37,997 nucleotides of DNA from Thermoanaerobaculum sp. (lineage in GTDB: Bacteria > Acidobacteriota > Thermoanaerobaculia > Multivoradales > UBA5704). Numbering within the stretch: position 1 is the first letter of the stretch; each line of letters begins with the position of its first letter. A model generated the notes under the pieces. It had not been told where the DNA came from. It saw nothing but the letters and a program-made list of their open reading frames with translations, and did not search any database. Positions 1,892-20,988 of this stretch are shown here, one piece after another. Location: assembly GCA_021154885.1 (NCBI GenBank), contig JAJKHS010000120.1, positions 1 through 37,997 on the forward strand, given 5' to 3'. A program made the translations under genes and the position numbers.

Positions 1892-3181
1892 TCAAGGTCC
1901 TGACCTGAGGCGCGCGGCGATGGCGGCGGCCGCGGCCGCGTGGCCCAGGGGAGACCAGTGGGAGTCCTGGAGGAAGTACAGGACCTCCCCTTGCGCCGCC
2001 CGTTGCCGGAAGACCGGCGTCAGGTCCAGGAACCCGGCGCCGGGGCTCGCCTGCCGCACGATGGCGGCCAGACGGTCCGGCAGGTCATTGCTCTTCCAGC
2101 GGCCCTGCCAGCCACGGGGCTCGGCGCCGGCGGCGAAGCGAACCCGGTCGAGGTAGATCCGATCCTTGCTCGGCACGAAGACGACGAGAAGGCGGGCCCC
2201 CTGGCGCCGGCACCGCTCCCCGGCCTCGCCCAGCACCCGGCGGACCACCCCCAGGTCCGCGATCTCCTGGGGGGACAGGCGGTGCGCCGGGTATTCGAAG
2301 TACATCCGCACCTCCCGCCCGTCGCCCTGCCGCAGGACTCCGAAGGGATAGGCCAGGGTCCCCGTGGCATCCTGGCCTCCCGCGGTGCGCCCGAGGCGGC
2401 GCAGGGCGTAGAGGGCGTTGCGGGTGAAGGAGCGCAGGGCGAAGGAGTGGTTGCGCCGCGACAGCTCGGGCCAGACCGGCAGCGCCTTCTCGTAGCGCTC
2501 GACGTCCTGGAGGTCGTTGCCCTCGAAGAACGCCCAGACGCAGACACGGGGATGGAGCGGCAGGGCGTAACGCCGCAGCACCTCCAGCTCCTGCTGCGGT
2601 CCATACCAGGACTGCCCCAGGTTCACCACCGGCCGGCCCAGGTCCGCCGCCAGCCGCGAGGTCACCAGCTCGGACGCCGTCACCCCCCATCCTTCGACGA
2701 AGGAATCGCCGAGGACGACGATCTCCGCCGCCTGGGGATCCGGCCGGTTGCGAAAGCCGTTCTGGTCGTACCGGTAGCGCACGCCGTCCCAGACGAAGTC
2801 GTCGTGGGGCCGGTGCAGGTGGAGCAGCGTGGGATCGACCAAATTGCCGGGATGGCTCCAGGGCTGGGCCGCGGGCGTCCCGAAGAGGAGGCGGAAGTCG
2901 GCCAGATGCAGAAGCACGAGCGTCTCGAGCAGGCCGATGCCGAGGAGCGACGCGGCGGTCGTCACCACGAAGCCCCGCGCCAGCTCGCCGCGCCGCCGCC
3001 GGGCGAAGCCGAGGAGCGCCCCCCAGCCGAGGAGATACAGCGCCGCGAGGCCCGCGAGCACATGGACGTTGGGGAACCGGCTCGGGCTCGCCCAAACGAA
3101 CAGCCCGAGCGCGCCGAGCCCCCCCGCGAGCGTCAGCCGCAGCGTCGCCCGGCCGGCCGGCGTCAGATCTGCCCCTCCCAC
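1892..3181 (-). CDS. Membrane-anchored SGNH/GDSL-like hydrolase
   Basis: A 429-residue protein. The first 100 residues hold about three hydrophobic segments (roughly 13-31, 40-59 and 72-93), followed by an extracytoplasmic SGNH domain. VVLGDSFVEGWG carries the block I nucleophile Ser160, EGNDLQD is a block III-like motif, and DSHWSPLGH near residue 406 gives the Asp-x-His pair, as in AlgX/AlgJ-like O-acetyltransferases and esterases. The likely role is O-acyl transfer or deacylation of a surface polymer. The given start is a GTG lying inside the 3' end of the aldo/keto reductase (19-base overlap) without an obvious Shine-Dalgarno, so the true start may be slightly downstream. The overlap suggests translational coupling. 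Confidence 0.8.
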   Translation of the reverse strand: MGGADLTPAGRATLRLTLAGGLGALGLFVWASPSRFPNVHVLAGLAALYLLGWGALLGFARRRRGELARGFVVTTAASLLGIGLLETLVLLHLADFRLLFGTPAAQPWSHPGNLVDPTLLHLHRPHDDFVWDGVRYRYDQNGFRNRPDPQAAEIVVLGDSFVEGWGVTASELVTSRLAADLGRPVVNLGQSWYGPQQELEVLRRYALPLHPRVCVWAFFEGNDLQDVERYEKALPVWPELSRRNHSFALRSFTRNALYALRRLGRTAGGQDATGTLAYPFGVLRQGDGREVRMYFEYPAHRLSPQEIADLGVVRRVLGEAGERCRRQGARLLVVFVPSKDRIYLDRVRFAAGAEPRGWQGRWKSNDLPDRLAAIVRQASPGAGFLDLTPVFRQRAAQGEVLYFLQDSHWSPLGHAAAAAAIAARLRSGP

Positions 3182-4053
3182 CCGGTGCCATGGGTGCGGA
3201 ACGCGGCACGGATCGCCGCCACCGTCTCCCCCGGCAGCGGTCCCTTCGCGACCTGCTCGACGTTCTGCCGCAGGTGCTCGAGCCGGCTCGTCCCCACGAT
3301 CGCGCAGTGGACGCCATCCTGGTAAGCGGCAAAGCGCAGGGCGAGCTCGGTCCAGTCGTAAGGACCGGGATCGAGGCCGAGGGCGCGCCAGCGCTCCCAG
3401 TAGAGCGCGACGTCCGCGGCGGCCGCGGCGGCCGGGCGTTCGGCGAAGCGCCAGGGGGCGTTGGCGGCGGGGCGCTTGGCGATCACCCCCAGGCCGCGCT
3501 CCCTCGCCGTTGGCAGCGCCCGTTCAATCGCCCGCTGGTCGACCAGGTTGACCGACGTCTCGACGCTGCCGAAGGCCCCGGACGCGATCACCCATTCGAG
3601 CGGCGCGTTGTCGCCGGAGTAGGCGGCGACCCGCACCTTCCCGGCCGCCACCGCCGCCTGCAACGCGGCGACGACCTCGCCGCGCTCCAGCACCGCGAGC
3701 GGGCAGGAGTGGAGGTGGACGACGTCGATACGGTCGGTGCGCAGCCGGCCGAGGGCGGCGTCCACCCCCGCCGCGATCACCGGGCCCGTCCAATCGTCGT
3801 AGCCGGGGATGCCGTAGCCGACCTTGGTCGAGAGGACGAATTCGTCGCGGCGGCCGGCGAGGTGGCGGCCGATCCGCTCCTCGGAGAGGCCGTAAGAGCG
3901 CGCCGTGTCGATCAGGGTGACGCCGAGATCGAGGGCGCCGTGGAGGAGGCGGCCGACCTCCGCCTCGGCCAGCGCCGGATCGCCGACGTGCCCGGCGCCG
4001 AAGCCGAGGATGGGAACGGTGAGGCCGGTCCTGCCGAAGGGTCGGCGTTCCAT
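3163..4053 (-). CDS. Aldo/keto reductase (copy 1)
   Basis: A 296-residue NADPH-dependent oxidoreductase with the AKR (alpha/beta)8 barrel. The tetrad is visible: Asp49 and Tyr54 in LIDTARSYG, Lys77 in LSTKVG, and His115 in VVHLHS. AIVGTSRLEHLRQNV at the C-terminus is the cofactor-binding segment. The substrate is unknown; aldehydes and ketones are typical. It resembles the D-threo-aldose/galactose dehydrogenase-like branch by its RTGL and VDAALGRL segments. The gene has a close paralogue at 20107-20988, differing at about 19 residues plus a 3-residue Ala deletion, and similarity extends to about 20 bases on either side of the coding region. It overlaps the SGNH gene downstream. Confidence 0.93.
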   Translation of the reverse strand: MERRPFGRTGLTVPILGFGAGHVGDPALAEAEVGRLLHGALDLGVTLIDTARSYGLSEERIGRHLAGRRDEFVLSTKVGYGIPGYDDWTGPVIAAGVDAALGRLRTDRIDVVHLHSCPLAVLERGEVVAALQAAVAAGKVRVAAYSGDNAPLEWVIASGAFGSVETSVNLVDQRAIERALPTARERGLGVIAKRPAANAPWRFAERPAAAAAADVALYWERWRALGLDPGPYDWTELALRFAAYQDGVHCAIVGTSRLEHLRQNVEQVAKGPLPGETVAAIRAAFRTHGTGWEGQI

Positions 4054-5130: not shown

Positions 5131-5390
5131 CATATACCTCCTTGATCTCGGGCGATAGCGATAGCAGAGATCCGCATCCCATGGGCGGCCACTTCGGGTC
5201 ACAATCTCAAGGCGTGGGCCAGACGGGTGCGGCGACGAGCCTGGCGAATATCATAAGAGACTACGATCAGCAGGGCAAGGAGAAGCTCTCGTAGGGCTCG
5301 CCCCGGGTGAGTAAACAAACTGGTCTTGTCCGTGTCCTCCCCCAGGAGAACACCGAGCGAGGAATCGCTCGCGAGGTGCGGGGATCCAGG

Positions 5391-8102
5391 ATGACGAGAG
5401 AGATCGACGAGGAGCGGCAAAGCCAAAGCTTTCAAACTTCCGAATCCCGCGGGCTATTCGTCGGGGTAAACACGTTCGAAGATCATGACATTGGATCTCT
5501 GAGCTTCGCCGTGGACGACGCGGTGGACTTGGCCTTTCTTTTCTCCTGCGAGTTGGAGCTGGTATCGCCAGAGAGAGTCCATCTCGCCCTGGCCGGAGAG
5601 ACCAAAAAACCCGAGACGGCAGATCAACTCGAGTGGCTCCGCACCGCTGGCGCGCAGTTCGTGGAAGCCAGGGCCAATAACCTCCAGAGGCTGGCTTTCG
5701 AGCTTGGCACAGACACGGGAAAAAGCGGCATCTGGATTCTCACGTTTTCGACTCATGGCTTCAGCGACCAGGGGCAGGACTACCTCGCCGCCCTTGACTC
5801 CTGGCTTTTGCGGCTTGCGAAGACCGGAATCTCCGTGACGTCCCTCTTGGACGACATCGCCCGGGCGACCACGCCGAGGCGCCTGCTCTTCCTGGACGCC
5901 TGCCGCCGACGTTTGACCCGCAATACCCGAGGGGCCGGAGACACGGGGATGAGCGATTCGCTCGGCCAGGCGATATCCAGCGCGACGGGCCTCGCCGTGC
6001 TGAATAGCACGACGCTCGGCGGCTACTCCTATGAGGATCCGACCCTCGGCAATGGCGTCTTCACTTCCGCCATCATACATGGGCTACGGAAAGGTCTCCA
6101 CGATGACGGCAGCGGATTCGTCACGATCAACTCGCTCGCCAAGTATGTCAACGAAGAGGTCCAGGCCTGGGTGAAAACGAAAAAACCCAACGACATCGAG
6201 GTGAGCCGGGGAGTGGTCTACACGATCGAAGGACAAGTGGGCAGATTGCCGCTCGCCTCAAACGCTCTGGATGCCCTCACGCGGCGAGAACACCTCAGGC
6301 GGCGACAGCTGGCCCTGCAAAGGCTGCGACGTAATATCGGTCGGATTATATCGGGCAAGCATTTCGATGAAATCGAACGTCTGACCAGACCGGACCGGCA
6401 ACCAGAGAACGTCATGAATATTCTGTGCGAGATAGAGGCGCTCGACGGTACGGAAAGATCGCAGCGTGCGTTTCTCCACTGGTTCGAACAGCAGGCCGAA
6501 CCCGCATGGCGGAGCCGCTTCAGAAACGGCTTAGAGCTGATGTATGGACTGCAGGGAATGATCGACAAGCCCGCGGCGAAACAATGTTTTCTCGACGCCG
6601 CAGCCACTGGACATCCCGTGCCTCGGTTGTGGCTTGCCTGGCTGCGGACGACGGGTTCGTGCTCCTTCGAGCGCGACGCGGCCTCCTCCTCGTCGCTCGG
6701 CAGAGAGGATCTACACGAAGTCGAGGTGCTGGCTAAGCAAGGCGATACAGACGCCGCGATGGTGCTGGGGTTTGCTCTGACCGATGGCATTTCCTGTGAG
6801 CCGAATCGAAACCGCGCCGTCGAATTGATCCGTAAGGCTGCGCAAACCGGAGACACCGTGGCCATGAACTGCCTTGGCTATCTGGGCGAAGTCGGCATGG
6901 AAACCGAATCGGCACATCTTTTCCGGAAGGCCGCCGAGCGCGGGAACGCTCAGGCGATGTGCAACCTGGCCGGATGCTATCTGGACGGGAAAGGAGTCGA
7001 GCAAGACGCCGCAACTGCAGCCACATGGTATCAGTCCGCAGCAGAACGCGGCCACGTGGCGGCGATGAACAGTCTGGCCATACTTTATGAAAGAGGTCGC
7101 GGTGTGGCACGGGACTATCAGATCGCGCTCCACTGGTACAAGAAGGCGGCGGACAACGGCGACGCTCAGGCGATGGCGAATCTCGGCTGGATGCATTTGA
7201 AAGGAAACGGTACGCGCCAGGATGGCAATGCAGCTGTTACATGGTTCCAGCGAGCTGTAGCGGTCGGCAATACCTTTGGAATGAGGAGTCTCGGCGCCCT
7301 CTACGCCGATGGTGAACATGTTCCAAAGGATTACGGTATGGCGACCGATCTCTGGCGCCGCGCAGCAGATCTGGGCGACGTCGATGCGATGTCAACACTG
7401 GGGCAATTCTGCGAGACACAGGGGGAACCGAATCTGGCTGGACCTTGGTATCAGCGGGCCGCCGAGCTGGGAGACGCCGACGCAGCGTACAGGCTCGCGA
7501 GGCTTCATGAGGAAGGTCGGGGCATCGAGAAAGATCTCGTCAAGGCCGGTGAATATTTTCTCTTCGCCGCCGAGCGCAGCAACGTCGATGCGATGACCGC
7601 CTTGGCACGAGCATACGACAGTGGCTCGGGAGTACCGGGAAACCAGGAGGAGGCGGCGAAGTGGTACCGGAAAGCTGCGGAGCGGGGAGACCTTTCGGCA
7701 ATGGATGCCCTGGGCTGGAAATATCAGAAAGGGCTCGGGGTTCCCTTGGACCCCGGTGAGGCGGTTCGCTGGTACCTCCCCGCAGCAGAGGGCGGGCTGG
7801 CCAATGCGATGAACAATATGGGATTCATGTATGAATCAGGCGGCGGAGTTCCCAAGAACCCTGCAAGGGCCGTGGTCTGGTATCAAAAAGCGGCAGAACA
7901 GGGCCACTCCTATGGCATGTACAATCTCGGGCGCTGTTTAATGAAAGGCATAGGCATTCCGAGCGACGAGACGAAGGCGCAGGCATGGCTCCAGAAAGCC
8001 GGTGAGCAGGGTCACCCCACCGCTCAGGAGCTCGCGAGGAAGCTGCAGCCCCGCAGAGTCTCCTCCAGCGTCGCCGAACTCTGGAAGAAATTGACAAGTT
8101 AG
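5391..8102 (+). CDS. Caspase-like (peptidase C14) protease with C-terminal Sel1 repeats
   Basis: A 903-residue cytoplasmic protein. Residues about 18-285 form a caspase/metacaspase-type domain: GLFVGVNTFED begins it, the catalytic His122 is in TFSTHGFSD, and Cys171 is in LLFLDACRR. A charged linker follows (about 290-385). From about 440 to 885, at least 13 Sel1-like repeats recur every 36 residues around the pattern KAAERGDxxAMxxLG. Bacterial caspase-Sel1 proteins are predicted or shown effectors in conflict and regulated-cell-death systems, where the repeats bind partners. No signal peptide is present. ATG 5391 is preferred to a GTG at 5307 because the earlier residues are not conserved-looking, but ribosome-site support is weak for both. 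Downstream sits a broken P-loop NTPase gene, possibly the former partner. Confidence 0.9.
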   Translation: MTREIDEERQSQSFQTSESRGLFVGVNTFEDHDIGSLSFAVDDAVDLAFLFSCELELVSPERVHLALAGETKKPETADQLEWLRTAGAQFVEARANNLQRLAFELGTDTGKSGIWILTFSTHGFSDQGQDYLAALDSWLLRLAKTGISVTSLLDDIARATTPRRLLFLDACRRRLTRNTRGAGDTGMSDSLGQAISSATGLAVLNSTTLGGYSYEDPTLGNGVFTSAIIHGLRKGLHDDGSGFVTINSLAKYVNEEVQAWVKTKKPNDIEVSRGVVYTIEGQVGRLPLASNALDALTRREHLRRRQLALQRLRRNIGRIISGKHFDEIERLTRPDRQPENVMNILCEIEALDGTERSQRAFLHWFEQQAEPAWRSRFRNGLELMYGLQGMIDKPAAKQCFLDAAATGHPVPRLWLAWLRTTGSCSFERDAASSSSLGREDLHEVEVLAKQGDTDAAMVLGFALTDGISCEPNRNRAVELIRKAAQTGDTVAMNCLGYLGEVGMETESAHLFRKAAERGNAQAMCNLAGCYLDGKGVEQDAATAATWYQSAAERGHVAAMNSLAILYERGRGVARDYQIALHWYKKAADNGDAQAMANLGWMHLKGNGTRQDGNAAVTWFQRAVAVGNTFGMRSLGALYADGEHVPKDYGMATDLWRRAADLGDVDAMSTLGQFCETQGEPNLAGPWYQRAAELGDADAAYRLARLHEEGRGIEKDLVKAGEYFLFAAERSNVDAMTALARAYDSGSGVPGNQEEAAKWYRKAAERGDLSAMDALGWKYQKGLGVPLDPGEAVRWYLPAAEGGLANAMNNMGFMYESGGGVPKNPARAVVWYQKAAEQGHSYGMYNLGRCLMKGIGIPSDETKAQAWLQKAGEQGHPTAQELARKLQPRRVSSSVAELWKKLTS

Positions 8103-9367: not shown

Positions 9368-10519
9368 TCACTGCTCGAATGCGGCCGGCTTCACCCAGTG
9401 ACGGCGGAAGTAATCCCGGATGCGAGGGAACAGCGAGTCCAACCGGCGGTGCACCAGAGAGTCCCGGAACACCAGCCACGCCGCGAGAGCGTAGCTGTGG
9501 AGCCCCCAAGCCTGCAGCATCGGGTAGCACTGCTCGACCAGCTCGGCGGCCCGCGCCGGCTCGCCCTTGAGCACGACCAGCTCGGCGAGGTCGATCGAGA
9601 GCAGGACGAGCTCGTGGTGGAGATCCCGGGCCTGGAGTTCCTCCCAGAGCCGCTTGTAGACGTCCTCCGCCTCGTCGAGCTCGCCGAGATTGCGGGCGAT
9701 CCGCCCCTCCAGCCAGTGGAGGCGGAGCTGGGTCCACTCGTCCGGGAACTGCCGGTAGAGAGGACGGGCCCGGTCGAGCACGGCGAGCGCCTCCGCGGCC
9801 TGGCCGCTGTCGTTGAGGAACCAGGCGAGGTCGTGCCGGGCGCACAGGTCGAGTCGCGGCTCCTTGCCGGGGTCGATCAGGGCGAGCCCCCGCTGGATGT
9901 GCGACAGCGCCCGCTCGGGGTTGACGTAACCGATCGCGTCCCCCATCTTGAGGAGGGTCCGCCCCTGCTGGTGCTTGTCGCCCGCCCGTCCGTACAGCTC
10001 CAAGGCCTCTTCGAGAGCGGCCTCCGCGGTCTCGAACTCTCCGATGTCGACCATGTAACCGGATTCCAGACTGAGGATGTGAGCTGCCTCCGCCGGCTCG
10101 CCCGTGCCCTCCTCGCAGATCCTCCATGCCTCGTTGAAAGCCCGGCGCGAGCCCTCGAAGTCTGAAGCCACGCGTTTCACGTTCCCGAGAGCGGCCCAGG
10201 CGGCGGCCCGCAGGTCTGCCACTCTCTTCTCTCCCACAACGGCCGGATCGAGGTGCTCGGCGACCAGGATCGCGAGGCGGACGACGTCGACCGCCTCCGC
10301 CGGCTCCGTGCGCATGTACCACCGGCTCGCCTCCAGCAGGCGGACGTAGAGGCCCCAGTTGTGAAAGCGCGCATCGGACTCCACCACCGCGAAACGCACC
10401 TCGGGCGGCAACGGCTCCAGCGCCGCCCACTGGCCCCACCCCTGGAGCTTCTCCAGCGCCAGCCTCTGCTCCTGATCGGCGTCCAACGGCGGTTCCCTCT
10501 CCACATGCCAGTCGTCCAT
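9368..10519 (-). CDS. Tetratricopeptide-repeat protein
   Basis: A 383-residue soluble protein with no signal peptide. After an acidic N-terminus, nearly the whole chain is built from helical pairs of TPR type, for example AAHILSLESGYMVDIGEFET and LLKMGDAIGYVNPERALSHI, with DEAEDVYKRLWEEL toward the C-terminus. TPRs mediate protein-protein contacts; no catalytic domain accompanies them here. Such proteins in Acidobacteriota often resemble the TPR part of regulators lacking their HTH. ATG 10519 is chosen because GAGGAG lies 7 bases upstream; a start 14 codons earlier lacks one. A specific partner cannot be named. Confidence 0.8.
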   Translation of the reverse strand: MDDWHVEREPPLDADQEQRLALEKLQGWGQWAALEPLPPEVRFAVVESDARFHNWGLYVRLLEASRWYMRTEPAEAVDVVRLAILVAEHLDPAVVGEKRVADLRAAAWAALGNVKRVASDFEGSRRAFNEAWRICEEGTGEPAEAAHILSLESGYMVDIGEFETAEAALEEALELYGRAGDKHQQGRTLLKMGDAIGYVNPERALSHIQRGLALIDPGKEPRLDLCARHDLAWFLNDSGQAAEALAVLDRARPLYRQFPDEWTQLRLHWLEGRIARNLGELDEAEDVYKRLWEELQARDLHHELVLLSIDLAELVVLKGEPARAAELVEQCYPMLQAWGLHSYALAAWLVFRDSLVHRRLDSLFPRIRDYFRRHWVKPAAFEQ

Positions 10520-10633
10520 GGATTCTCTCCTCTTGTCTTCTTCTTGCGTGTACTCTAGCATAGTGGAGACACTGAAGGAGATAAAAAAAGCCGGGCGATG
10601 CCGGCGGACATTGCGAGACGAAACGGAGGAGGG

Positions 10634-11256: not shown

Positions 11257-12756
11257 ATGCTGCGCACGAGCAGTTACACGATCTACGTCGACTTGCCGGG
11301 CAATCAGGACGAGATGCTCCTGGTCCATACCTACACCGGCGCCTTCGATCGCGTGTCGCGCCGGGTCGCCACCTATGTGAGGTCGCTGGAAGCGGGCCGC
11401 CCTCCCAAGCCGCTGTATGGCGACTGGACGCCGGAGCCCGCTCTGGATGGCGAGGCGGCCCCGCCTTCGGACGAGACGATCGGCGTGCTCTCGCGGCGGG
11501 GGTACCTGACGGCGATGACCGGCGAGCAGGAGGAGGAGTTCTTCACCCGTTACGTGGACAAGCTCCACGGCCTCCACCTGAAGCGCTGGCCCTCCTATCT
11601 CTTCATGCCGACCTACGACTGCAACCTGCGCTGTGCCTACTGTTTTCAGGATCACATGCGCACGGACCCCCGTTTCGGCCACCTGCTGCGGCGGATGACG
11701 CTCGACATGGTCGACCGCCTCTTCGCGGCGATGCCGAAGATCGAGGCGCTGCATGGCATTCCGGCAGAGGCGAGCCCGCAGCTCGACGTCGGCTTCTTCG
11801 GCGGCGAGCCGCTCCTGGCCGCCAACCGTCCCATCGTCGAGCACGTCATCCGCCGCGGCCTCGACCGCGGCGAGGCCCGCTTCTGGGCGATCTCGAACGG
11901 CACCGAGCTCGACGCCTACGAGGACCTCCTGAGCCCGGACAAGCTGGCGAGCGTGCAAATCACTCTCGACGGCCCGCCGCGCGAGCACGACCGGCGGCGG
12001 GTCTATGCCGATGGCGGCGGCTCCTGGGAGCGCATCGCCCGCAACGTCTCCATGGCCCTCGCGCGCGGCGTCGCGGTCGCCATCCGCACCAACGTCGACC
12101 GCAACAACGTTGGCGAGCTGGCCGATCTCGCCGCGGAGCTCATCCGGCAGGGCTGGGTTCGCTACCCCAACTTCGGCTCGCAGGTGGCGCCGGTCCGCGC
12201 CTCGAACGACAAGACGGACGCCGGAGCGACGCTCGACACCTGGGAGCTCGACCGCCTCCTGACGGCGATGCGCAACGCCAATCCGGACGTGGAGATCCTC
12301 GGCCGGGTGGACGACTCCCTGCGCAACCAGGCCCGCCGCATCTTCTCTCATCGCGGTCTTCCCGCTTTCAAACCCAGCTTCTGCTCGGCGCACACGGGGA
12401 TGTACATCTTCGACGCCTTCGGCGACGTCTACGCCTGCTGGGAGAAGACCGGGGACGAGAAGATCCGCATCGGTCACGTCGACGAAAATTCGGACGTCCA
12501 ATTCAGCTTCGACCTGCGCGCCCTGTGGCAGGGCCGGACGGTCGCCTCGAATCCGGTCTGCCTCAAGTGCCGCTACAACCTGTTCTGCGGCGGCGGCTGT
12601 GCCGTGCTCGCGGCCGGGCATTCCGGCGGCGATTTCTATCGAAATTATTGCGATGGCTATGCCCATCGCTTTCGGGCCGCCGTGGCCGAAGCCTATCAGG
12701 ACCACGCCAGCGGCAAAGCGTTCACGGACAAGCCGGACGCGTTCTGTGACCTCTAG
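11257..12756 (+). CDS. Radical SAM/SPASM peptide maturase
   Basis: A 499-residue enzyme. Residues 1-105 form an N-terminal domain typical of RiPP radical SAM maturases (possibly leader-binding). The CNLRCAYC motif (Cys122, Cys126, Cys129) binds the catalytic 4Fe-4S cluster, followed by FFGGEPLL (the GGE SAM-binding motif). The C-terminal SPASM region has FCSAHTG, ACWEK, CLKCRYNLFCGGGC and YCDGY, enough cysteines for two auxiliary Fe-S clusters. Such enzymes install thioether or C-C crosslinks in ribosomal peptides. The start at 11257 leaves a GGGAGG about 12 bases upstream; a start at 11200 would add residues unlike the family. The next gene, 15 bases downstream, encodes the evident substrate peptide. 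The chemistry (sactionine, ranthionine or cyclophane) cannot be read from sequence. Confidence 0.92.
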   Translation: MLRTSSYTIYVDLPGNQDEMLLVHTYTGAFDRVSRRVATYVRSLEAGRPPKPLYGDWTPEPALDGEAAPPSDETIGVLSRRGYLTAMTGEQEEEFFTRYVDKLHGLHLKRWPSYLFMPTYDCNLRCAYCFQDHMRTDPRFGHLLRRMTLDMVDRLFAAMPKIEALHGIPAEASPQLDVGFFGGEPLLAANRPIVEHVIRRGLDRGEARFWAISNGTELDAYEDLLSPDKLASVQITLDGPPREHDRRRVYADGGGSWERIARNVSMALARGVAVAIRTNVDRNNVGELADLAAELIRQGWVRYPNFGSQVAPVRASNDKTDAGATLDTWELDRLLTAMRNANPDVEILGRVDDSLRNQARRIFSHRGLPAFKPSFCSAHTGMYIFDAFGDVYACWEKTGDEKIRIGHVDENSDVQFSFDLRALWQGRTVASNPVCLKCRYNLFCGGGCAVLAAGHSGGDFYRNYCDGYAHRFRAAVAEAYQDHASGKAFTDKPDAFCDL

Positions 12757-12771
12757 CGAAAGGAGGGAGAC

Positions 12772-12999
12772 GTGAAGAAAAAGAAGAATGAGCCGCAGGT
12801 CCCGGAGATCGTCAGCCTGAACGAGGAGCTGTTCAGCCTGGAGGTCGGGAGCCTGCCGTTCGAGGAGCTGCTCGACCAGCGCCTGGCGCTCGCCGTGGCG
12901 GCGATTGGAACCAATTTCGTCTGCGACACGTTCACCTGCACCACCTTCACCGGCACGTGCACCGCCTTTGGTTGTACGAGCTTCAAAATCAGCAAGTGA
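12772..12999 (+). CDS. Putative RiPP precursor peptide (75 aa)
   Basis: A GTG start with AAGGAGG 5-6 bases upstream begins a 75-residue peptide. Residues 1-46 are a charged, helical leader (SLNEELFSLEVGSLPFEELL). Residues 47-75 are a core with four cysteines at 51, 56, 63 and 68, interleaved with Thr and Phe: CDTFTCTTFTGTC then TAFGC. Phe flanks each Cys in a regular pattern. No signal peptide and no double-Gly cleavage site are obvious, although AAIG precedes the core. It is the neighbour of a radical SAM/SPASM enzyme, the arrangement of sactipeptides, ranthipeptides and related families. It does not match the six-Cys SCIFF pattern. Function (antimicrobial, signal or metal ligand) is unknown. 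Confidence 0.82.
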   Translation: MKKKKNEPQVPEIVSLNEELFSLEVGSLPFEELLDQRLALAVAAIGTNFVCDTFTCTTFTGTCTAFGCTSFKISK

Positions 13000-13016
13000 G
13001 CAGAAAAGAGCCGAAG

Positions 13017-13484
13017 ATGAGCCGCCCCAAGCTCTCCCGCCGCTCTCAGATCCTGAACCGCTTGCTGGTATTCCTGTCGGCCGCTGCCGTGGTGGCGCTG
13101 GCCTGCCTCGCATTGCCGCTTCTCGCCGGCTCCCCTCCGCGCGCGCAGCCCGTGGCCGAGCTGGCGGCCCTGAGGCAGCAGCCGGCACCTCCGAGCCTTG
13201 CGGACGGCAAGCCGGACGCCGGCAGCAGCCAGCGCATCCAGCGCATGGAGGCCGAGCTCAAGGCTATGCAGGAAGAGGCTGCCAAGGATCCGGCGCGACC
13301 GACGGTGGCCCAGGTCCAGCGCGAATTGGACCGCATGCTCGCGGAGCGCTCCGGAGATTCCCAGGTCGCACGGCTCGAGCGCCAGGTCAAGGGGCTGCTG
13401 GCGCTCTCGCTCGTGCTGGCCGTGACGCTGTGCGGAGTTGCGATCTCCAACCTGAGGAGAGCCAGGAGCACCGCCGTCGCCTGA
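13017..13484 (+). CDS. Two-TM coiled-coil protein of the radical SAM locus
   Basis: A 155-residue protein with transmembrane segments at about 14-37 and 127-144. The intervening region is Ala/Pro-rich and then heptad-like (RIQRMEAELKAMQEEAAK and VARLERQVKGL), so it probably forms a coiled coil on one side of the membrane. No family is recognised. The ATG at 13017 is preferred, giving a start 17 bases after the precursor stop; its ribosome site (AAAAGAG) is weak. Position between the precursor and the permease suggests a role in export, immunity or membrane anchoring, but this is inference from context. Confidence 0.72.
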   Translation: MSRPKLSRRSQILNRLLVFLSAAAVVALACLALPLLAGSPPRAQPVAELAALRQQPAPPSLADGKPDAGSSQRIQRMEAELKAMQEEAAKDPARPTVAQVQRELDRMLAERSGDSQVARLERQVKGLLALSLVLAVTLCGVAISNLRRARSTAVA

Positions 13485-13497
13485 GCGGGATCGCTAT

Positions 13498-15888
13498 ATG
13501 CCCTGGAGTCAGCGTCAGCCGGGTCTCGCGTTGCTGATCGTCGCCAGCCTGGCGCTCGGAATCGGCGCCACCACGACGGTGGGCAGCATCGCCGAGGCCG
13601 TGCTGCTGCGGCCGTTGCCTTTCCGCTCGCCCGAGCGTCTCGTGGTGGCCGGGGAGGTCCTGAAAGCGAATCCGGAGATGTGGAAAGTCTCCTCCTATCC
13701 GAACTATCTGGATTGGAGGGCACGAAGCCATGTCTTCTCGCGCCTTGCGATCTCCCGTCTCTGGACTCCCGTCATGCGGCGGCCGGCGGAGCCCACGCGC
13801 CTGGTGGGCGCCGAGGTCTCCGAGGATTTCTTCTCGCTCCTCGATCTCCAGCCGGCGCTGGGGCGGCCCCTCGGACCGGGGGATTTCCGCCCCGGAGCCG
13901 AGCCCGTGGTGGTCCTCAGCCACCGCTTGTGGCAGCAGAGGTTCGGCGGCGATCCGGGGCTCGTCGGCAAGACGATCTCGCTCGACGGGACGCCGGGCAC
14001 GGTCGCCGGCATCCTGCCGGCCGGCAACGCCCTGGCCGAGCCCCTGGTGGCCGGCGACGTCGAGATCCTGAGACCCCTGGTCGTCGGCGCCAAAGATCTA
14101 TTCGCCGGCCGCGGTGTACGCGCCCTGCGGGTCCTCGGCCGGCTGCGGACGGGCGTCAGCCGGCAGCAGGCGCAGACCGAGATGCAATCGCTGGCGCGGA
14201 CCCTGGCGGCCGAGCACCCCGAAACCAACAAGGACGCCACGGTGCGCGTCGAGCTCCTGCGCGAGGTGGTGATCGCGTCCAGCCGGCCGGTCCTGCTGGC
14301 GCTGCTCGGCGCGGCGGCCCTGCTGCTGCTCATCGCCTGCGTCAACGCGGCGAACGTGCGCCTCGTGCAGCTCATCGCCCGGGGACGGGAGCTCGCCATC
14401 CGTTCGGCCATGGGAGCGGACCGCCTGCGGCTGTTCCACCAATTGCTGATGGAAAGCCTGCCGCTCGTGGGCGCGGCCGCTCTGCTCGGCTGGGTGTTGA
14501 CCTGGTGGGTCTGGGACACGTTCACCTCCCGCCTGCCGCCCGCCGTCGTCCGCCTCACGGGGCTGACCCTCGACGGCCGGGTGCTGGCGGCCACTCTCCT
14601 GGTTTCGCTGGTCGCCCTCATCCTCGTCGACCTGCTGCCCTTCCTGGAGCTGACGCGGCTCCCCCTGCTCGCCCTGCTCACCGAGAGCTCCGCCGCGGCG
14701 GGTGAATCGAGGTCCAGCCGCCGCATGCGCAACGTCCTCGTCGCCGCGGAGCTGGCCCTCTCCCTGGCGCTGCTGATCGGCGCCGGGCTGCTGACGCGGA
14801 GCCTCGTCCGGCTGTCCAGCGTCGACCTCGGCTTCCGTCCCCAGCGCGTCCTCTCCCTGCACCTCGAGCTGACCTCGCCGCCCTACGCCGAGCCGCGGCG
14901 GGCGCGGGCGTTCCTGGCCGACCTCCGCCGCGAGCTGGAGCACCGGCCGGGGATCCGCTCGGCGGCGGTGGTGGTCAACCTGCCGCTCAAGGAGGGCGGC
15001 AACATGAGCACCGGCCTGGCATTGCAGCCCGGGGCCAACCTGGACTGGCAGATCGACCTCAACGGCGTCAGCCCCGGCTACTTCGCCACCCTGGGCATCC
15101 CCCTGCTCGCGGGGCGGGACTTCTCGCCGCAAGAGATGGCGGACGATCAGCACGCGGTCGTCATCCTCGACGACGTGGCCGCCCGGCGACTGTGGCCGTC
15201 CGGAAACCCGCTCGGCCGGCGCGTGATCCTCGATTGGATGAACCCGGTGCCGCGGGAGGTCGTCGGCGTCGTCGGGGACGTGCGGGAGAGCGGCCCGGAC
15301 GCGCCGCCGCACCCCGAGGCCTACCTGCCCTATCCGCAGCTCTTCTTCGGCTCGGCGAGCCTCCTGGTCCATACCGCGGGCGATCCCCTGCGGGTGGCCC
15401 GGGAGGTCCGGAGCCAAGTGCACGCCCTGGACGCGGACGTCCCCGTCGAGAGCATCGCCACCCTGGAGCAGCTCGCCGCGTCCAGGATCGCCGACCCCAT
15501 GACGGACACCCGGATCCTCACCTCCTTCGCCGTGGCGGGCCTGCTGCTGGCCACGATCGGAGTCTACGGCGTCACCTCGTTCACGGTCTCCCAGCAGCAA
15601 CGCGACATCGGCGTCCGCATCGCCCTGGGCGCGCAGCGCCGCGACGTGACTCGGGAGATCCTGGCCCGGACCGCGGGGTGGGCGGGGCTCGGCCTGCTGC
15701 TGGGGCTGGGCGGAGGCTATCTGCTGTCGCGGCTGCTGGCGAGCATCCTCTTCGAGGTCAGCCCCCTCGACCCCTGGACGTTCATCGCCATGTCGCTGCT
15801 GCTGCTGGCGGCCGCCCTCGGGGCGAGTTGCCTGCCAGCGCGAAAAGCCTTGCAAATCGATCCGGTGCGGGCCCTCGCCGAGGGCTGA
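13498..15888 (+). CDS. Orphan MacB/FtsX-type permease (ADOP family)
   Basis: A 796-residue protein with duplicated MacB periplasmic-core plus FtsX permease halves. A TM opens the protein (LLIVASLALGIGATTTVG), and FtsX TM clusters occur near 255-370 and 660-790. RSAMGADRLRLFHQLLMES and RIALGAQRRDVTREILARTA are the classical coupling-helix segments of each FtsX half. The family is the 'acidobacterial duplicated orphan permease', which lacks a fused or adjacent ATPase. No ATPase is present in this window, so it would borrow one or act independently. The N-terminus is about 10 residues shorter than usual. The 13-base gap to the coiled-coil gene marks it as the last gene of the RiPP-type locus, where export of the modified peptide is the natural guess. 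A 64-bp related fragment occurs at 22980-23043. Confidence 0.88.
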   Translation: MPWSQRQPGLALLIVASLALGIGATTTVGSIAEAVLLRPLPFRSPERLVVAGEVLKANPEMWKVSSYPNYLDWRARSHVFSRLAISRLWTPVMRRPAEPTRLVGAEVSEDFFSLLDLQPALGRPLGPGDFRPGAEPVVVLSHRLWQQRFGGDPGLVGKTISLDGTPGTVAGILPAGNALAEPLVAGDVEILRPLVVGAKDLFAGRGVRALRVLGRLRTGVSRQQAQTEMQSLARTLAAEHPETNKDATVRVELLREVVIASSRPVLLALLGAAALLLLIACVNAANVRLVQLIARGRELAIRSAMGADRLRLFHQLLMESLPLVGAAALLGWVLTWWVWDTFTSRLPPAVVRLTGLTLDGRVLAATLLVSLVALILVDLLPFLELTRLPLLALLTESSAAAGESRSSRRMRNVLVAAELALSLALLIGAGLLTRSLVRLSSVDLGFRPQRVLSLHLELTSPPYAEPRRARAFLADLRRELEHRPGIRSAAVVVNLPLKEGGNMSTGLALQPGANLDWQIDLNGVSPGYFATLGIPLLAGRDFSPQEMADDQHAVVILDDVAARRLWPSGNPLGRRVILDWMNPVPREVVGVVGDVRESGPDAPPHPEAYLPYPQLFFGSASLLVHTAGDPLRVAREVRSQVHALDADVPVESIATLEQLAASRIADPMTDTRILTSFAVAGLLLATIGVYGVTSFTVSQQQRDIGVRIALGAQRRDVTREILARTAGWAGLGLLLGLGGGYLLSRLLASILFEVSPLDPWTFIAMSLLLLAAALGASCLPARKALQIDPVRALAEG

Positions 15889-16029
15889 ATAGAACGTCGA
15901 CTACGAGAGGAGTCTGACATGCGCACCCGTCTCCAATCTTGAGCGCAGCCATGTCTTTCCGGCATGGCGTTTCTCCTGGTTGGTTCTGGTCGTTCTGCCG
16001 CCCAACGTTTCAGCCCCATCTGGGCGTCG

Positions 16030-18585
16030 CTATCGTCCAACAAGCACAAATGCAGCCCAGTGCGCCTCGGAGTTAGCCTGCTTCAGCTTACGCTTGATCT
16101 CAGTCAACGCCTCGTCTGGCGCCTTGCCTGAATCCACTGCCGTCAAGAATTCGCTGACCAAGGTCGCCGTTACTGGATCGTCGTAGACCTTCCACCGGGT
16201 TACGACGGAATCCAACGCTCCAGCGGCGAAAAGCGCATAAGGAAGTCCCAATATCCCTTCTCCGGAGGCTACGCGACCACTTCCACTCTCGCAGCTTGAG
16301 ACGACAACCAACTCCGTAGGCATGTCAAACAATGCGAGCTCTCGAGCCCTGATGTATCGGTCACTCTCGCTACCTCCCTCCGGCCGTCCAAGCACCAACG
16401 CGCTGAGCGCCGGATTCTTGTCATCCAGGTATCCGTGCGCTGATAGTAGAACCATGCGCGATCGACCCAATCGACCAGAAGCATTCAAGTCAAATAAGTT
16501 TTTACGCGTTGCTGATGGACCACGAAATAGCGAGGTGCCTTCCACCAACATGAATCTCTTCGCGAGGGTTTCAACTTCGCGGGAAGAAAACGGAAGATCT
16601 TCGAATTGCTCTAATTGACCTGTCGCAGAGGGGCTTTCGGGTGGCGTGTCGGAGTATTTGGCACCTCCAAACACGAGCAGGCGAGCGTCGCGGCTACGGC
16701 CAGCCTGAGCGACATTCGTTAGGAGCGTAAGCATTGTCCATGAGTGCACGTACCGGACAATATGGCGGTCCACTACGAGCGCATCGCCATCATTGAGCGT
16801 TTCGAAAGGAATGCTCCAAAGGGACCCCTCTGGCGAAATAACCCACCGGCGGTAATTGGAGAGCACAGACCGAATTGGGTCAGGCAACAACTGGTTCGAT
16901 AGTGCGCTTCTTACCTTCTCGACTGAAGTCACGATCTCGGCGCCCGGGAACGAGGCGCCTCCCGGAGCAACAAAGAACGCGTCCCGAAAATACCAGACTT
17001 CGTTGCCGTTTTTGGAAATTCCCGCGAGGCCCTCTGCATGGGACAGCCCCTGAACATAGGCATCTACTGTATATTCAAGACCAGTCGCGTTTCCAAGATT
17101 AATAAGGCTCAGCTTGCCGGATGGTTCCAATATGGCAACGAGAACTTCAAGCTGCGGGCCATCGACACGCCTGGTAAGATAACTAATGAAAACTTCGTCA
17201 GCGCGGAGAACCTTGGCTACGTTGGTCGGATTTTGGATACGTGGCTGAGTCGCAACCTGGAAACGCATAGATCGTCCAGAGACATCGTCGAACATATTGG
17301 CAAACCTAATCTTGGCTGCCTGCAGCTGCCCAGCCAGAGCTTGCCGCTTAGCCTGGTCAGGGATTCCAGCCTCGAGCTGCGCTTCGAGGTCGCTCACGAG
17401 AGTCTCCGCAGTTTTCAGTGCAGTTGCGTCCGATCTCGGTACGAGGTCATCAGCCAACGCGAGTCGAAGCGAAAAGGCATCGCGTAGCGACCGCGCTTTC
17501 GACCACTCCATTCCATAGAACGCATCGAGCACCCTTCCGGCCTCTGCGGCTGCGAAGGAGAATCGTTTATAAGCACCAGCGCTCTTTTCGAAGAAGACTT
17601 GGCGATCCGCAGGCAGACGGAGGCGGAGTCTCTCGCGCTCAACAAGGGCAACGTAGTCGCCGAGAATCGGAACAGCGAGAGCGGCGTCGATATCCGCAGT
17701 GGCGAAACCAAGATTCGCCAGTAGCGGAAATGTCCGGGGATGGTCCGGGCCGAGGAGCGCCCGAAGGCCTTCGTAGCTGGCTTTGAGGCCGGCAAGAGTC
17801 TCAGCCTGGTTTTTGCTGCCGTCTTGCTGAGCCACTCGGTTCAACAGATACCAAGCTGAGTTAGCTAGTTCGTACCGCTCAGGATCACCTGCATCAAACT
17901 CGCCGACAGCTCTGATAGTTTCCCGAGCTACCGACCGAGCACGATCGAAGCGCCTGAGACGAAACGCTGTCGCAGCGACGTTCCATTTCGCGATCACAAT
18001 CTGTTTGCGCTTGACTACAGTCTCGACATGCTCGCGCGGCATTGCTGTGATGAGACGTTCTTGGCTGGCTACTATCGATTCCGCGGTGGTTAACGCGCGT
18101 TCCCACTGTAGCGTCAGCACATAGAGCTTCGAAAGAAGTGAGAGCGATTGGAGGGTAAACACATTATCAGCACCGTAACATTTCTCACGGGCCTGGTAAT
18201 TGGCTTCGGCATCTACCAACGCCTGTCCATAGTCTCGCAACTCAATACGCGCAACAATCACATTGTTCACTGCATCCAGGTAAAGATGGTGTGTCGGAGC
18301 CACAAATTTGGCGATCGTGTTGACATATGCCAACAAATCGGTCAAAGCCTCCTGAGGTCGACCAGCAGCGAGTAGATCTACGCCGCGTCGGTATGGACCA
18401 TCTAGAGCCTGAAGCCGGCTCCGCTGGGTAGCTTCGGTTTCACGAGCAAGGGCTTCATCCGTAATAATGTTACATCTGTGGATGAATAGAGGGTCTATGC
18501 TCCCAGGCGGCTGAGCTTGAGCGATTAACTTAGCGGGGCCAAGCAGGGTGAAGCAAAACAGGAGAATTTTTATCCAAACTCGCAT
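16030..18585 (-). CDS. Exported CHAT-domain cysteine protease with TPR-like N-terminus
   Basis: An 851-residue protein. A signal peptide (MRVWIKILLFCFTLLGPAKL, cleavage near AQA) is followed by about 380 residues of helical, TPR-like repeats (for example YLDAVNNVIVARIELRDYGQ). The C-terminal CHAT domain carries the catalytic dyad, His717 in LLSAHGYLD and Cys765 in VVVSSCESGSG, with the terminal LPYALFAAGA and AHWAAFVLVG motifs. CHAT proteases are caspase relatives; intracellular ones act in defence, but this one is predicted to be exported. The start overlaps nothing; its Shine-Dalgarno (TTAGGTG) includes the stop codon of the upstream hydrolase gene. Base composition is lower in GC than the flanks, which suggests acquisition. 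Substrate is unknown; the adjacent hydrolase is a candidate. Confidence 0.9.
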   Translation of the reverse strand: MRVWIKILLFCFTLLGPAKLIAQAQPPGSIDPLFIHRCNIITDEALARETEATQRSRLQALDGPYRRGVDLLAAGRPQEALTDLLAYVNTIAKFVAPTHHLYLDAVNNVIVARIELRDYGQALVDAEANYQAREKCYGADNVFTLQSLSLLSKLYVLTLQWERALTTAESIVASQERLITAMPREHVETVVKRKQIVIAKWNVAATAFRLRRFDRARSVARETIRAVGEFDAGDPERYELANSAWYLLNRVAQQDGSKNQAETLAGLKASYEGLRALLGPDHPRTFPLLANLGFATADIDAALAVPILGDYVALVERERLRLRLPADRQVFFEKSAGAYKRFSFAAAEAGRVLDAFYGMEWSKARSLRDAFSLRLALADDLVPRSDATALKTAETLVSDLEAQLEAGIPDQAKRQALAGQLQAAKIRFANMFDDVSGRSMRFQVATQPRIQNPTNVAKVLRADEVFISYLTRRVDGPQLEVLVAILEPSGKLSLINLGNATGLEYTVDAYVQGLSHAEGLAGISKNGNEVWYFRDAFFVAPGGASFPGAEIVTSVEKVRSALSNQLLPDPIRSVLSNYRRWVISPEGSLWSIPFETLNDGDALVVDRHIVRYVHSWTMLTLLTNVAQAGRSRDARLLVFGGAKYSDTPPESPSATGQLEQFEDLPFSSREVETLAKRFMLVEGTSLFRGPSATRKNLFDLNASGRLGRSRMVLLSAHGYLDDKNPALSALVLGRPEGGSESDRYIRARELALFDMPTELVVVSSCESGSGRVASGEGILGLPYALFAAGALDSVVTRWKVYDDPVTATLVSEFLTAVDSGKAPDEALTEIKRKLKQANSEAHWAAFVLVGR

Positions 18586-20106: not shown

Positions 20107-20988
20107 TCAGATCTGCCCCTCCCATCCGTCGCCATGGGCGCGGAAGGCGGCGCGGATGGCCGCCGCCGTCGCCGCCGGCAGCGGTCCCTTCGCGACCTGC
20201 TCGACGTTCTGCCGCAGGTGCTCGAGCCGGCTCGTCCCTACGATCGCACAGTGGACGCCGTCCTGCCAAGCGGCGAAGCGCAGAGCGAGCTCGGTCCATT
20301 CGTAAGGGCCGGGATCGAGGCCGAGGGCGCGCCAGCGTTCCCAGTAGAGCGCGACGTCCGTGGCGGCCGGGCGTTCGGCGAAACGCCAGGGGGCGTTGGC
20401 GGCGGGGCGCTTGGCGATCACCCCCAGGCCGCGCTCCTTCGCCGCCGGCAGCGCCCGTTCGATCGCCCGCTGGTCGACCAGGTTGACCGACGTCTCGACG
20501 CTGCCGAAGGCCCCGGACTCAATGGCCCATGCGAGCGGCGCGTTGTCGCCGGAGTAGGCGGCGACCCGCACCTTCCCGTCGGCCACCGCGGCCTGCAACG
20601 CGGCGACGACCTCGCCGCGCTCCAGCACCGCGAGCGGGCAGGAGTGGAGATGGACGACGTCGATGCGGTCGGTGCGCAGCCGGCCGAGGGCGGCGTCCAC
20701 CCCGGCCGCGATCACCGGGAAGGTCCAGTCGTCAAAACCGGGGATGCCGTAGCCGACCTTGGTCGAGAGGACGAATTCGTCGCGGCGGCCGGCGAGGTGG
20801 CGGCCGATCCGCTCCTCGGAGAGGCCGTAGGAGCGCGCCGTGTCGATCAGGGTGACGCCGAGGTCGAGAGCGCCGTGGAGGAGTCGGCCGACCTCCGCCT
20901 CGGGGAGCGCCGGATCGCCGACGTGCCCGGCGCCAAGCCCAAGGATGGGGACGGCGAGGCCGGTCCTGCCGAAGGGTCGGAGCTCCAT
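20107..20988 (-). CDS. Aldo/keto reductase (copy 2)
   Basis: A 293-residue paralogue of the reductase at 3163-4053, with the same tetrad (Asp49, Tyr54, Lys77, His115). By eye the two differ at about 19 positions, including Gly90Phe, Tyr85Phe, Ala29Pro and the GETV/AATA change, plus a three-Ala deletion near residue 208. The similarity extends into short flanks: a GCGCGAGTCTAGCGCGAGT block upstream and CAGATCTGAC downstream. In copy 1 an SGNH gene begins at this point, but here sequence diverges after the same initial codons. So a block of about 0.9 kb has been duplicated or converted. The substrate is unknown. Confidence 0.93.
   Translation of the reverse strand: MELRPFGRTGLAVPILGLGAGHVGDPALPEAEVGRLLHGALDLGVTLIDTARSYGLSEERIGRHLAGRRDEFVLSTKVGYGIPGFDDWTFPVIAAGVDAALGRLRTDRIDVVHLHSCPLAVLERGEVVAALQAAVADGKVRVAAYSGDNAPLAWAIESGAFGSVETSVNLVDQRAIERALPAAKERGLGVIAKRPAANAPWRFAERPAATDVALYWERWRALGLDPGPYEWTELALRFAAWQDGVHCAIVGTSRLEHLRQNVEQVAKGPLPAATAAAIRAAFRAHGDGWEGQI

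Follow-up and report, generated by a model that had tools for sequence, protein, structure and literature searches.

The window analysed here is a 37,997-nt stretch of Thermoanaerobaculum sp. DNA (Acidobacteriota; GenBank assembly GCA_021154885.1, contig JAJKHS010000120.1, positions 1 to 37,997 of the forward strand). Four genes on its plus strand form a candidate locus for a ribosomally synthesised and post-translationally modified peptide (RiPP). A radical SAM/SPASM maturase (11257-12756, ATG start, 499 amino acids; taken from the list of open reading frames (ORFs) and from matches to PF04055 and TIGR04085) is followed by a precursor peptide (12772-12999, GTG start, 75 amino acids; an ORF with homologues beside relatives of the maturase), with the ribosome-binding site AGGAGGG at 12761-12767 read from the sequence. 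Next come an ORF for a two-transmembrane (two-TM) protein (13017-13484, 155 amino acids), assigned to the operon by position, and an ADOP-type FtsX/MacB permease (13498-15888, 796 amino acids). The three successive intergenic gaps are 15, 17 and 13 bases. An earlier examination of the letters alone, here called the sequence-only reading, had proposed this tightly spaced, same-strand set, with a 75-residue precursor 15 bases past the maturase stop and cysteines C51, C56, C63 and C68, and the ORF list and sequence bear it out. The FtsX-type assignment was likewise confirmed, by TIGR03434 (ADOP; 792 bits, cut-off 622.3). A promoter scan of the region gave no promoter-like site, and a terminator scan was uninformative, with four terminator-like sites, including one past the permease (15948-15968), against an expected 2.4.

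The precursor peptide is conserved together with the maturase. Homologous peptides with four cysteines in the core lie behind three maturases 69-82% identical to the window's, so a chance ORF can be discounted in the window. With a leader model built from five seed loci, adjoining peptides came up at the first pass in seven further maturase loci; iteration brought the total to 17 of the 29 loci (E below 1e-3), and a motif search with inspection added seven more loci. A small leader-bearing candidate precursor thus accompanies the maturase, by sequence, in 24 of 29 loci, the co-conservation expected of RiPP systems in general. L055, where the leader is cut off by the contig end, is counted beside the 24; no precursor was found in L052, in the partial loci L026 and L063, or in L064, a distant relative at 27%. 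The sequence-only reading had set beforehand, as the outcome that would overturn it, a lack of co-conservation between peptide and radical SAM gene; this test did not refute the RiPP reading, which the 24 loci support.

In the window the leader region runs from EIVSLN to LDQRLALAVAA (12805-12903, plus strand; family leader model, E 2.3e-7, the peptide being a training member). Most peptides share the leader motif E-[ILM]-x-S-[LF]-N or a near variant, and the second half of the leader is exchangeable: mostly VEELERRLELA-like, and of a double-glycine (GG) type in several cyanobacterial and myxobacterial loci. In L017 (5234-5659) and L019 (5493-5837) the double-Gly leaders, which we take to be Nif11-like, contain ELESLS or QLESLS, as if the maturase recognition motif were nested in another leader type; the cores there end in CSQW.

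The leader model was trained on six sequences from five loci and then iterated, and its leader-only version on 15 leaders. The leader-only alignment was preferred because aligning whole precursors put the leader motif of the window clade in the wrong place. Across 297 genomes of the phylum the leader-only model had hits under E 1e-5 in three (G000, G246 and G008), each next to a maturase; all three are training members, and the result speaks for specificity, not sensitivity. Three other genomes of the phylum gave leader hits at E 0.002-0.007 that covered only the second half of the model. Among 23 maturase-bearing genomes, hits at E of at most 0.01 were found in 13, for a total of 36 hits. Of these, 34 are below 1e-4 and share a contig with the maturase, about 6 kb away at most; the other two are weaker and are located elsewhere. 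Ten of the 23 genomes are missed by the model, seven of them having GG-type leaders.

The sequence-only reading had described the end of the window peptide as an alternation of Phe and Cys. Those residues are present, but what is conserved is the unit C-x-x-F, occurring four times, and not alternation as such. The four units, each a predicted ring, are C51-D-T-F54 (12922-12933), C56-T-T-F59 (12937-12948), C63-T-A-F66 (12958-12969) and C68-T-S-F71 (12973-12984), all on the plus strand. Among relatives the unit broadens to C-x-x-[FYND]. In 38 cores chosen by their leader alone, the chain extends to +3 for 122 cysteines (residues there: N 36, D 22, F 22, Y 11, H 7, L 5, others 19), and F/Y/N/D accounts for 91 of the 122, against a mean of 28.3 and a maximum of 47 in 5000 shuffles of the non-Cys residues within cores. 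Elsewhere between -6 and +7 these residues are not above chance; the lowest p, 0.08, is at -2 (35/129), and at +4 they number 7/120. The per-locus mean fraction of F/Y/N/D over 17 loci is 0.72 at +3 and no higher than 0.28 at any other offset, while with one core per clade (14 clades, four close acidobacterial loci being merged into one) it is 0.70 at +3 against 0.21 for shuffled cores (maximum 0.46). The truncated second peptide of L014 is within the 38 cores and was dropped from the 17-locus and 14-clade analyses. Peptides from the seven loci of the motif search, found by motif and by eye and partly with a C..[FYND] filter, are absent from these statistics and enter only a set of 44 peptides at 24 loci, in which F/Y/N/D stands at +3 in 100 of 142 cases. 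Core starts were taken as the end of the leader-model match, not as a known cleavage site. The +3 rule was itself drawn from inspection of this set of cores; the shuffles are thus a test of the pattern and not of a pre-set rule.

The position of the partner is constant and its identity shifts. The window, L014 and L016 have F; L015 has Y and F, and L058 has Y. N predominates in L025 and L020, L023 has N and D, D and N predominate in L062, and L050 combines Y, F and N. Spacing between cysteines ranges from 1 to 31, 4 and 5 being commonest. Because the position holds while the acceptor varies, the maturase probably staples each core Cys to the residue at i+3. The sequence-only reading had held that the bond could not be known from sequence; this stands for the carbon, which cannot be read, whereas the residues joined are suggested by the constant C-x-x-[FYND] spacing.

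Three peptides of the Polyangium locus L023 (7466-8287) have one core Cys each, in CIINW, CIIDF and CIIDW, and would give one-ring products. Peptides of this kind, in which an internal disulphide is impossible, bear on the proposal that the cysteines stay uncrosslinked, serving in a metal-binding or disulphide peptide or accompanied by some other change (epimerisation, oxidation), with the +3 pattern reflecting folding. The poor fit of L054, L057 and L061 to the +3 rule and the adjacent cysteines in cores of L059 and L061 would suit that proposal; metal binding or disulphides would hardly account for a constant +3 partner of shifting identity, with D/N and without E/Q, and we regard the proposal as improbable. 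The adjacent-Cys cores themselves (ECCTH, SCCVDGGG) follow the +3 rule in part and perhaps have a different ring pattern.

The core can also be read in the other direction, as F-x-C, and a cyclophane or another C-C or aryl crosslink placed on Phe. The window core does hold F-V-C, F-T-C and F-G-C, and the YhhB and dynobactin maturase models are among the best 25 of 61 NCBIfam matches to the maturase. In close relatives, however, the F-to-C distance varies (F-TGT-C, F-GS-C, F-RS-C) and the C-to-F distance is constant at three; the window's extra residue sits between units (F-TGT-C against F-xS-C), not within C-x-x-F. Many relatives have Asn or Asp, which lack a ring, in place of the aromatic residue, and at Cys-2 there is only the non-significant count given above. 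The F-x-C motif was therefore set aside, and a crosslink of this type seems very improbable.

Composition at +3 points to the carbon that might be attacked. The ratio of D/N to E/Q is 58:0 at +3 and 79:50 elsewhere in the cores (Fisher 3.6e-10, for cores that are not independent), and that of F/Y/H to L/I/V/M is 40:6 at +3 against 24:127 elsewhere. S/T/G/A is depleted at +3 (9/119 against 353/725 elsewhere); in the 44-peptide set Ser occurs there once (14.9 expected), Gly three times (21.8) and Thr twice (11.5). In Phe, Tyr, His, Asn and Asp the gamma carbon is sp2, and Glu and Gln carry the same functional groups as Asp and Asn one carbon further out. That an sp2 gamma carbon is common to the acceptors and that Glu and Gln are absent at +3 would fit removal of hydrogen at C-beta, which we suppose to leave a stabilised radical. 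This sp2 reading was made after the fact.

The same Cys to i+3 pairs could instead be joined at C-alpha, as in sactipeptides. Streptosactin, made by GggB, is the closest parallel, with un-nested rings between Cys25 and Ser28 and between Cys31 and Gly34 (PMC8172795; this and the other papers cited here were available in part), as in the rings predicted for the window; the comparison is of peptides, not enzymes. Phe, Tyr, Asn and Asp are among known sactipeptide acceptors (PMC8326336, as far as available). C-alpha chemistry does not explain why Ser and Gly, the streptosactin acceptors, are both depleted at +3 in the window family, or why Glu and Gln are absent there while Asp and Asn are common, and the maturase is nearer to PapB and CteB than to the sactisynthases StsB and SkfB (scores below). 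We consider this the main rival, and a rather unlikely one.

Two domains were recognised in the maturase: radical SAM (PF04055, 45.2 bits) and SPASM, the latter by TIGR04085 (46.0 bits, over a cut-off of 27); no match is listed to the Pfam SPASM model PF13186. The CX3CX2C motif (C122/C126/C129) and the full set of seven SPASM cysteines (C376, C394, C435, C438, C444, C448 and C465), which together mark radical SAM/SPASM RiPP maturases in general, are invariant in 13 of 13 aligned sequences, the window's included. An NCBIfam scan gave 61 models at E 1, and the scores that follow are those of the best 25 of the 61. None of the equivalog models among them lies above its own cut-off. The top match is the PapB model NF047865 (107.9 bits, cut-off 340) and the second is the CefB model NF038107 (105.5 bits, cut-off 600); TIGR04463 scores 103.6 bits (cut-off 525), the geopeptide maturase model 97.7 bits (cut-off 400), the SCIFF model TIGR03974 63.1 bits (cut-off 425) and the sactisynthase StsB model 41.8 bits. 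Membership in the PapB, SCIFF, CefB, TIGR04463 and geopeptide maturase families was rejected, these scores being far under the curated cut-offs. The mismatch with SCIFF that had first been read from the Cys pattern thus holds for the enzyme as well as for the peptide, which has four cysteines where SCIFF peptides have six. The window maturase belongs to a widespread family with no NCBIfam model above its cut-off among these 25.

Structural comparison points the same way. A sequence search of the PDB ranks CteB first (5wgg, E 2.3e-15). The AlphaFold2 model of the maturase (mean predicted local distance difference test score 83.2, predicted template-modelling score 0.83) is weak at 122-128 and 449-462, which surround cluster ligands, and its best Foldseek match is again CteB, which aligns over residues 5-483 (Z 20.4); SkfB aligns over residues 111-454 only (Z 14.2). 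Residues 1-108 are predicted to form strands at 8-13, 16-24 and 29-34 and helices at 35-43, 72-81 and 89-108. Three strands followed by helices is the arrangement of the RRE in such maturases (PMC12406949, as far as available), and with the CteB alignment beginning at residue 5 the modelled N-terminus appears to be an RRE-like domain, its fold and domain plan resembling those of CteB. The nearest enzymes, PapB by NCBIfam and CteB by PDB sequence and structure, form thioethers, and this supports a thioether in the window product.

Known ranthipeptide bonds join sulphur to C-beta of Asp or to C-gamma of Glu or Thr (PMC11002830) and to C-beta of Asn, the bonded carbons adjoining a functional group (PMC8326336). 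Freyrasin, made by PapB, shares with the window peptide a SPASM maturase and repeated Cys-to-acceptor units with the Cys N-terminal, and its thioether runs from sulphur to the Asp C-beta (PMC9413430). For PapB the unit is CX3D and a carboxylate is required (PMC9413430, PMC8172795), whereas the window family has CX2-[FYND] with an acceptor that is often aromatic or Asn; the window's CXXF units are not of the PapB CX3D/E type. Thermocellin's SCIFF maturase CteB (5wgg, 5why) appears to share with the window maturase the plan of RRE, radical SAM and SPASM domains; SCIFF peptides have six cysteines, and in thermocellin sulphur is bonded to C-gamma of Thr (PMC11002830), a residue that is depleted at +3 in the window family. 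The CefA/CefB system (NF038108, NF038107) supplies the second-best maturase model, far under its cut-off; CefA has a Cys at every fifth residue, and spacing in the window family is not fixed at five. One L025 (Ktedonosporobacter) core has a marginal match to the CefA model (E 0.0017; 18.2 bits, cut-off 30), and the window peptide has none. Streptococcal NxxC peptides have a C-beta thioether between Asn and Cys three apart (PMC8326336); as far as the available text goes, Asn precedes Cys there (Asn20, Cys23), while in the window family the acceptor follows, a comparison of peptides rather than enzymes. Against these systems the window product would be ranthipeptide-like, with i to i+3 C-beta thioethers, a new spacing and partly aromatic acceptors.

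Several observations weigh against this interpretation. At +3, 31 of 122 cysteines have a residue other than F/Y/N/D, seven of these having His, and L054 (0/2), L057 (0/4), L061 (3/9), L059 (4/10) and L022 (2/5) fit poorly. Trp occurs at +3 in none of the leader-selected cores and 22 times elsewhere in them, though its C-gamma is sp2; its absence may reflect size, and two separately found cyanobacterial cores end in C-S-Q-W. PapB, the best-scoring model, rejects Asn in place of Asp according to the available part of PMC8172795, and spacing alone does not decide the carbon, since the C-alpha bonds of streptosactin also span i to i+3. Compared by fold alone, TigE (8vpo) ties with CteB (Z 20.0 against 20.4). 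The window genome has no match to the daptide_HExxH (M50) model, which leaves leader removal there unexplained. The ring bond is a prediction from sequence patterns.

Taking these points together, a leader-guided maturase that forms four Cys to i+3 C-beta thioethers is, in our judgement, the best explanation overall, and somewhat better than an even bet. The N-terminal RRE-like domain would bind the EIVSLN leader motif, and a 5'-deoxyadenosyl radical formed at the C122/C126/C129 site would take hydrogen from C-beta of the residue three past each core Cys. The Cys sulphur would then be joined to that C-beta, the SPASM clusters assisting. The predicted window product has un-nested four-residue rings, C51-F54, C56-F59, C63-F66 and C68-F71, and a mass change of -8 Da. 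In relatives the ring geometry, i to i+3, would be unchanged and the acceptor would be Tyr, Asn, Asp or His. Handling of the product in the membrane may fall to the ADOP permease, and the leader may be cut off, in many relatives, by an intramembrane protease of M50 type.

A more specific proposal is offered tentatively, as falling a little short of even. Under it, the family across five phyla would staple Cys to C-beta of the i+3 residue if that residue has an sp2 gamma carbon, one fold being retuned between benzylic and carbonyl-activated acceptors, and the window product would have four Cys-Phe benzylic thioethers. Neither the C-x-x-[FYND] rule nor a Cys-Phe C-beta bond appears in the available parts of PMC9413430, PMC11002830, PMC12406949, PMC9062424, PMC8326336, PMC8172795 and PMC10885120, which is weak evidence, and no publication on this maturase/peptide family was found in the literature searched, an absence that is also weak evidence as most subscription papers were outside its coverage. 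The window locus would represent a new variant among radical SAM thioether peptides, the aromatic C-beta bond being its predicted feature.

Maturase relatives, 46-82% identical to the window's, lie in 13 related loci of Acidobacteriota, Cyanobacteriota, Myxococcota, Chloroflexota and Pseudomonadota (phyla as given in sequence records, several being metagenome bins). Within the window's phylum, 8 of 297 genomes have a maturase match at E 1e-20, and four of the eight, the window's own included, carry members at least 51% identical, one of them a contig-end fragment. A maturase was found in 4 of 195 genomes in the phylum of Hyalangium, in 6 of 291 in the order of Anabaena, and in one of 386 in its phylum and one of 47 in the class of Ktedonosporobacter, in each of these last two only the genome at the centre of the search. 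Distribution of the family is patchy and sporadic across five phyla. Most deep forks of the maturase tree are without support, so acceptor changes could not be counted on it. Carriage on plasmids was considered and rejected, with only two matches, both at 30%.

The window genome has a second maturase copy, 58% identical to the first, on another contig (G000:C32, 7490-13497), where the peptide core reads ACTEFTCNVY. Downstream lies a class III lanthipeptide-like set of an ILSLQ-type small ORF, a RamC-like LanKC (909 amino acids), an ABC transporter (599 amino acids) and an ADOP permease. A hybrid radical SAM/lanthipeptide locus was rejected, the LanKC having its own ILSLQ-type small ORF, and the set appears to be an adjacent cluster; the ADOP gene, which lies some 5.5 kb downstream of this maturase, was therefore not counted as linked (this copy is L060 among the loci).

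Of the two downstream genes in the window, the permease seems to travel with the maturase. Twenty genes of the window genome, this permease among them, score above the TIGR03434 cut-off; it is 63, 59 and 46% identical to the permeases of L015, L014 and L016, and no more than 40% identical to any of the other 19 matches within the window genome, the higher identity to relatives' permeases being the ground for linkage. The permease directly follows the peptide in L014 and L015, and in L016 an M50-like protease (HELGH) lies between. ADOP-like pieces also follow the peptide in L058 (42%) and the gammaproteobacterial L022 (30%), and L054 and L059 have weaker matches at a greater distance. A role in export or in the membrane is possible. 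The two-TM protein, which the sequence-only reading had counted in the set, is there by position and is not a conserved part of the locus: its TM stretches were read by eye, no family scores above cut-off, and tblastn (E 1e-5) found no homologue in 28 other loci, some on short contigs, which rules it out as a core component. M50-type proteases, near the daptide_HExxH and YydH/LiaK models and all below cut-off, occur in 12 of the 28 other loci, whose flank lengths differ, and by reading in none of the eight with GG-type leaders; the epipeptide EpeX is processed by an M50 protease (PMC10885120, as far as available). A squalene-cyclase-like alpha/alpha-toroid protein lies beside eight maturases (L020, L021, L024, L025, L050, L059, L061 and L062). 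Halogenation as a family trait was rejected, a Trp-halogenase gene being present in L017, with a homologue in L019, and no other scanned gene.

The window region is flanked by a caspase-like protein with SEL1-type repeats (5307-8102, plus strand, read by eye) and by a TPR-CHAT protein (16030-18585, minus strand, PF12770). A TPR protein at 9368-10561 (minus strand) has a weak match to the cyclophane-RiPP protein HaaT (29.7 bits, cut-off 1125), and TPR ORFs resembling it also lie near the maturases of L016 and L061. Two closely alike aldo/keto reductase-like ORFs (3163-4053 and 20107-20988, minus strand, by eye), 16 kb apart, probably arose by duplication.

For thioether-forming radical SAM enzymes, the carbon attacked generally has to be established for each case separately. 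The present family seems to be a natural series in which fold and spacing are kept while the acceptor goes from Phe to Tyr, Asn, Asp and His, and acceptor choice could be probed enzyme by enzyme among the relatives of the window maturase. If the rule holds, ring positions of the whole peptide family would be readable from sequence, and it would offer a four-residue Cys-aromatic staple for peptide engineering.

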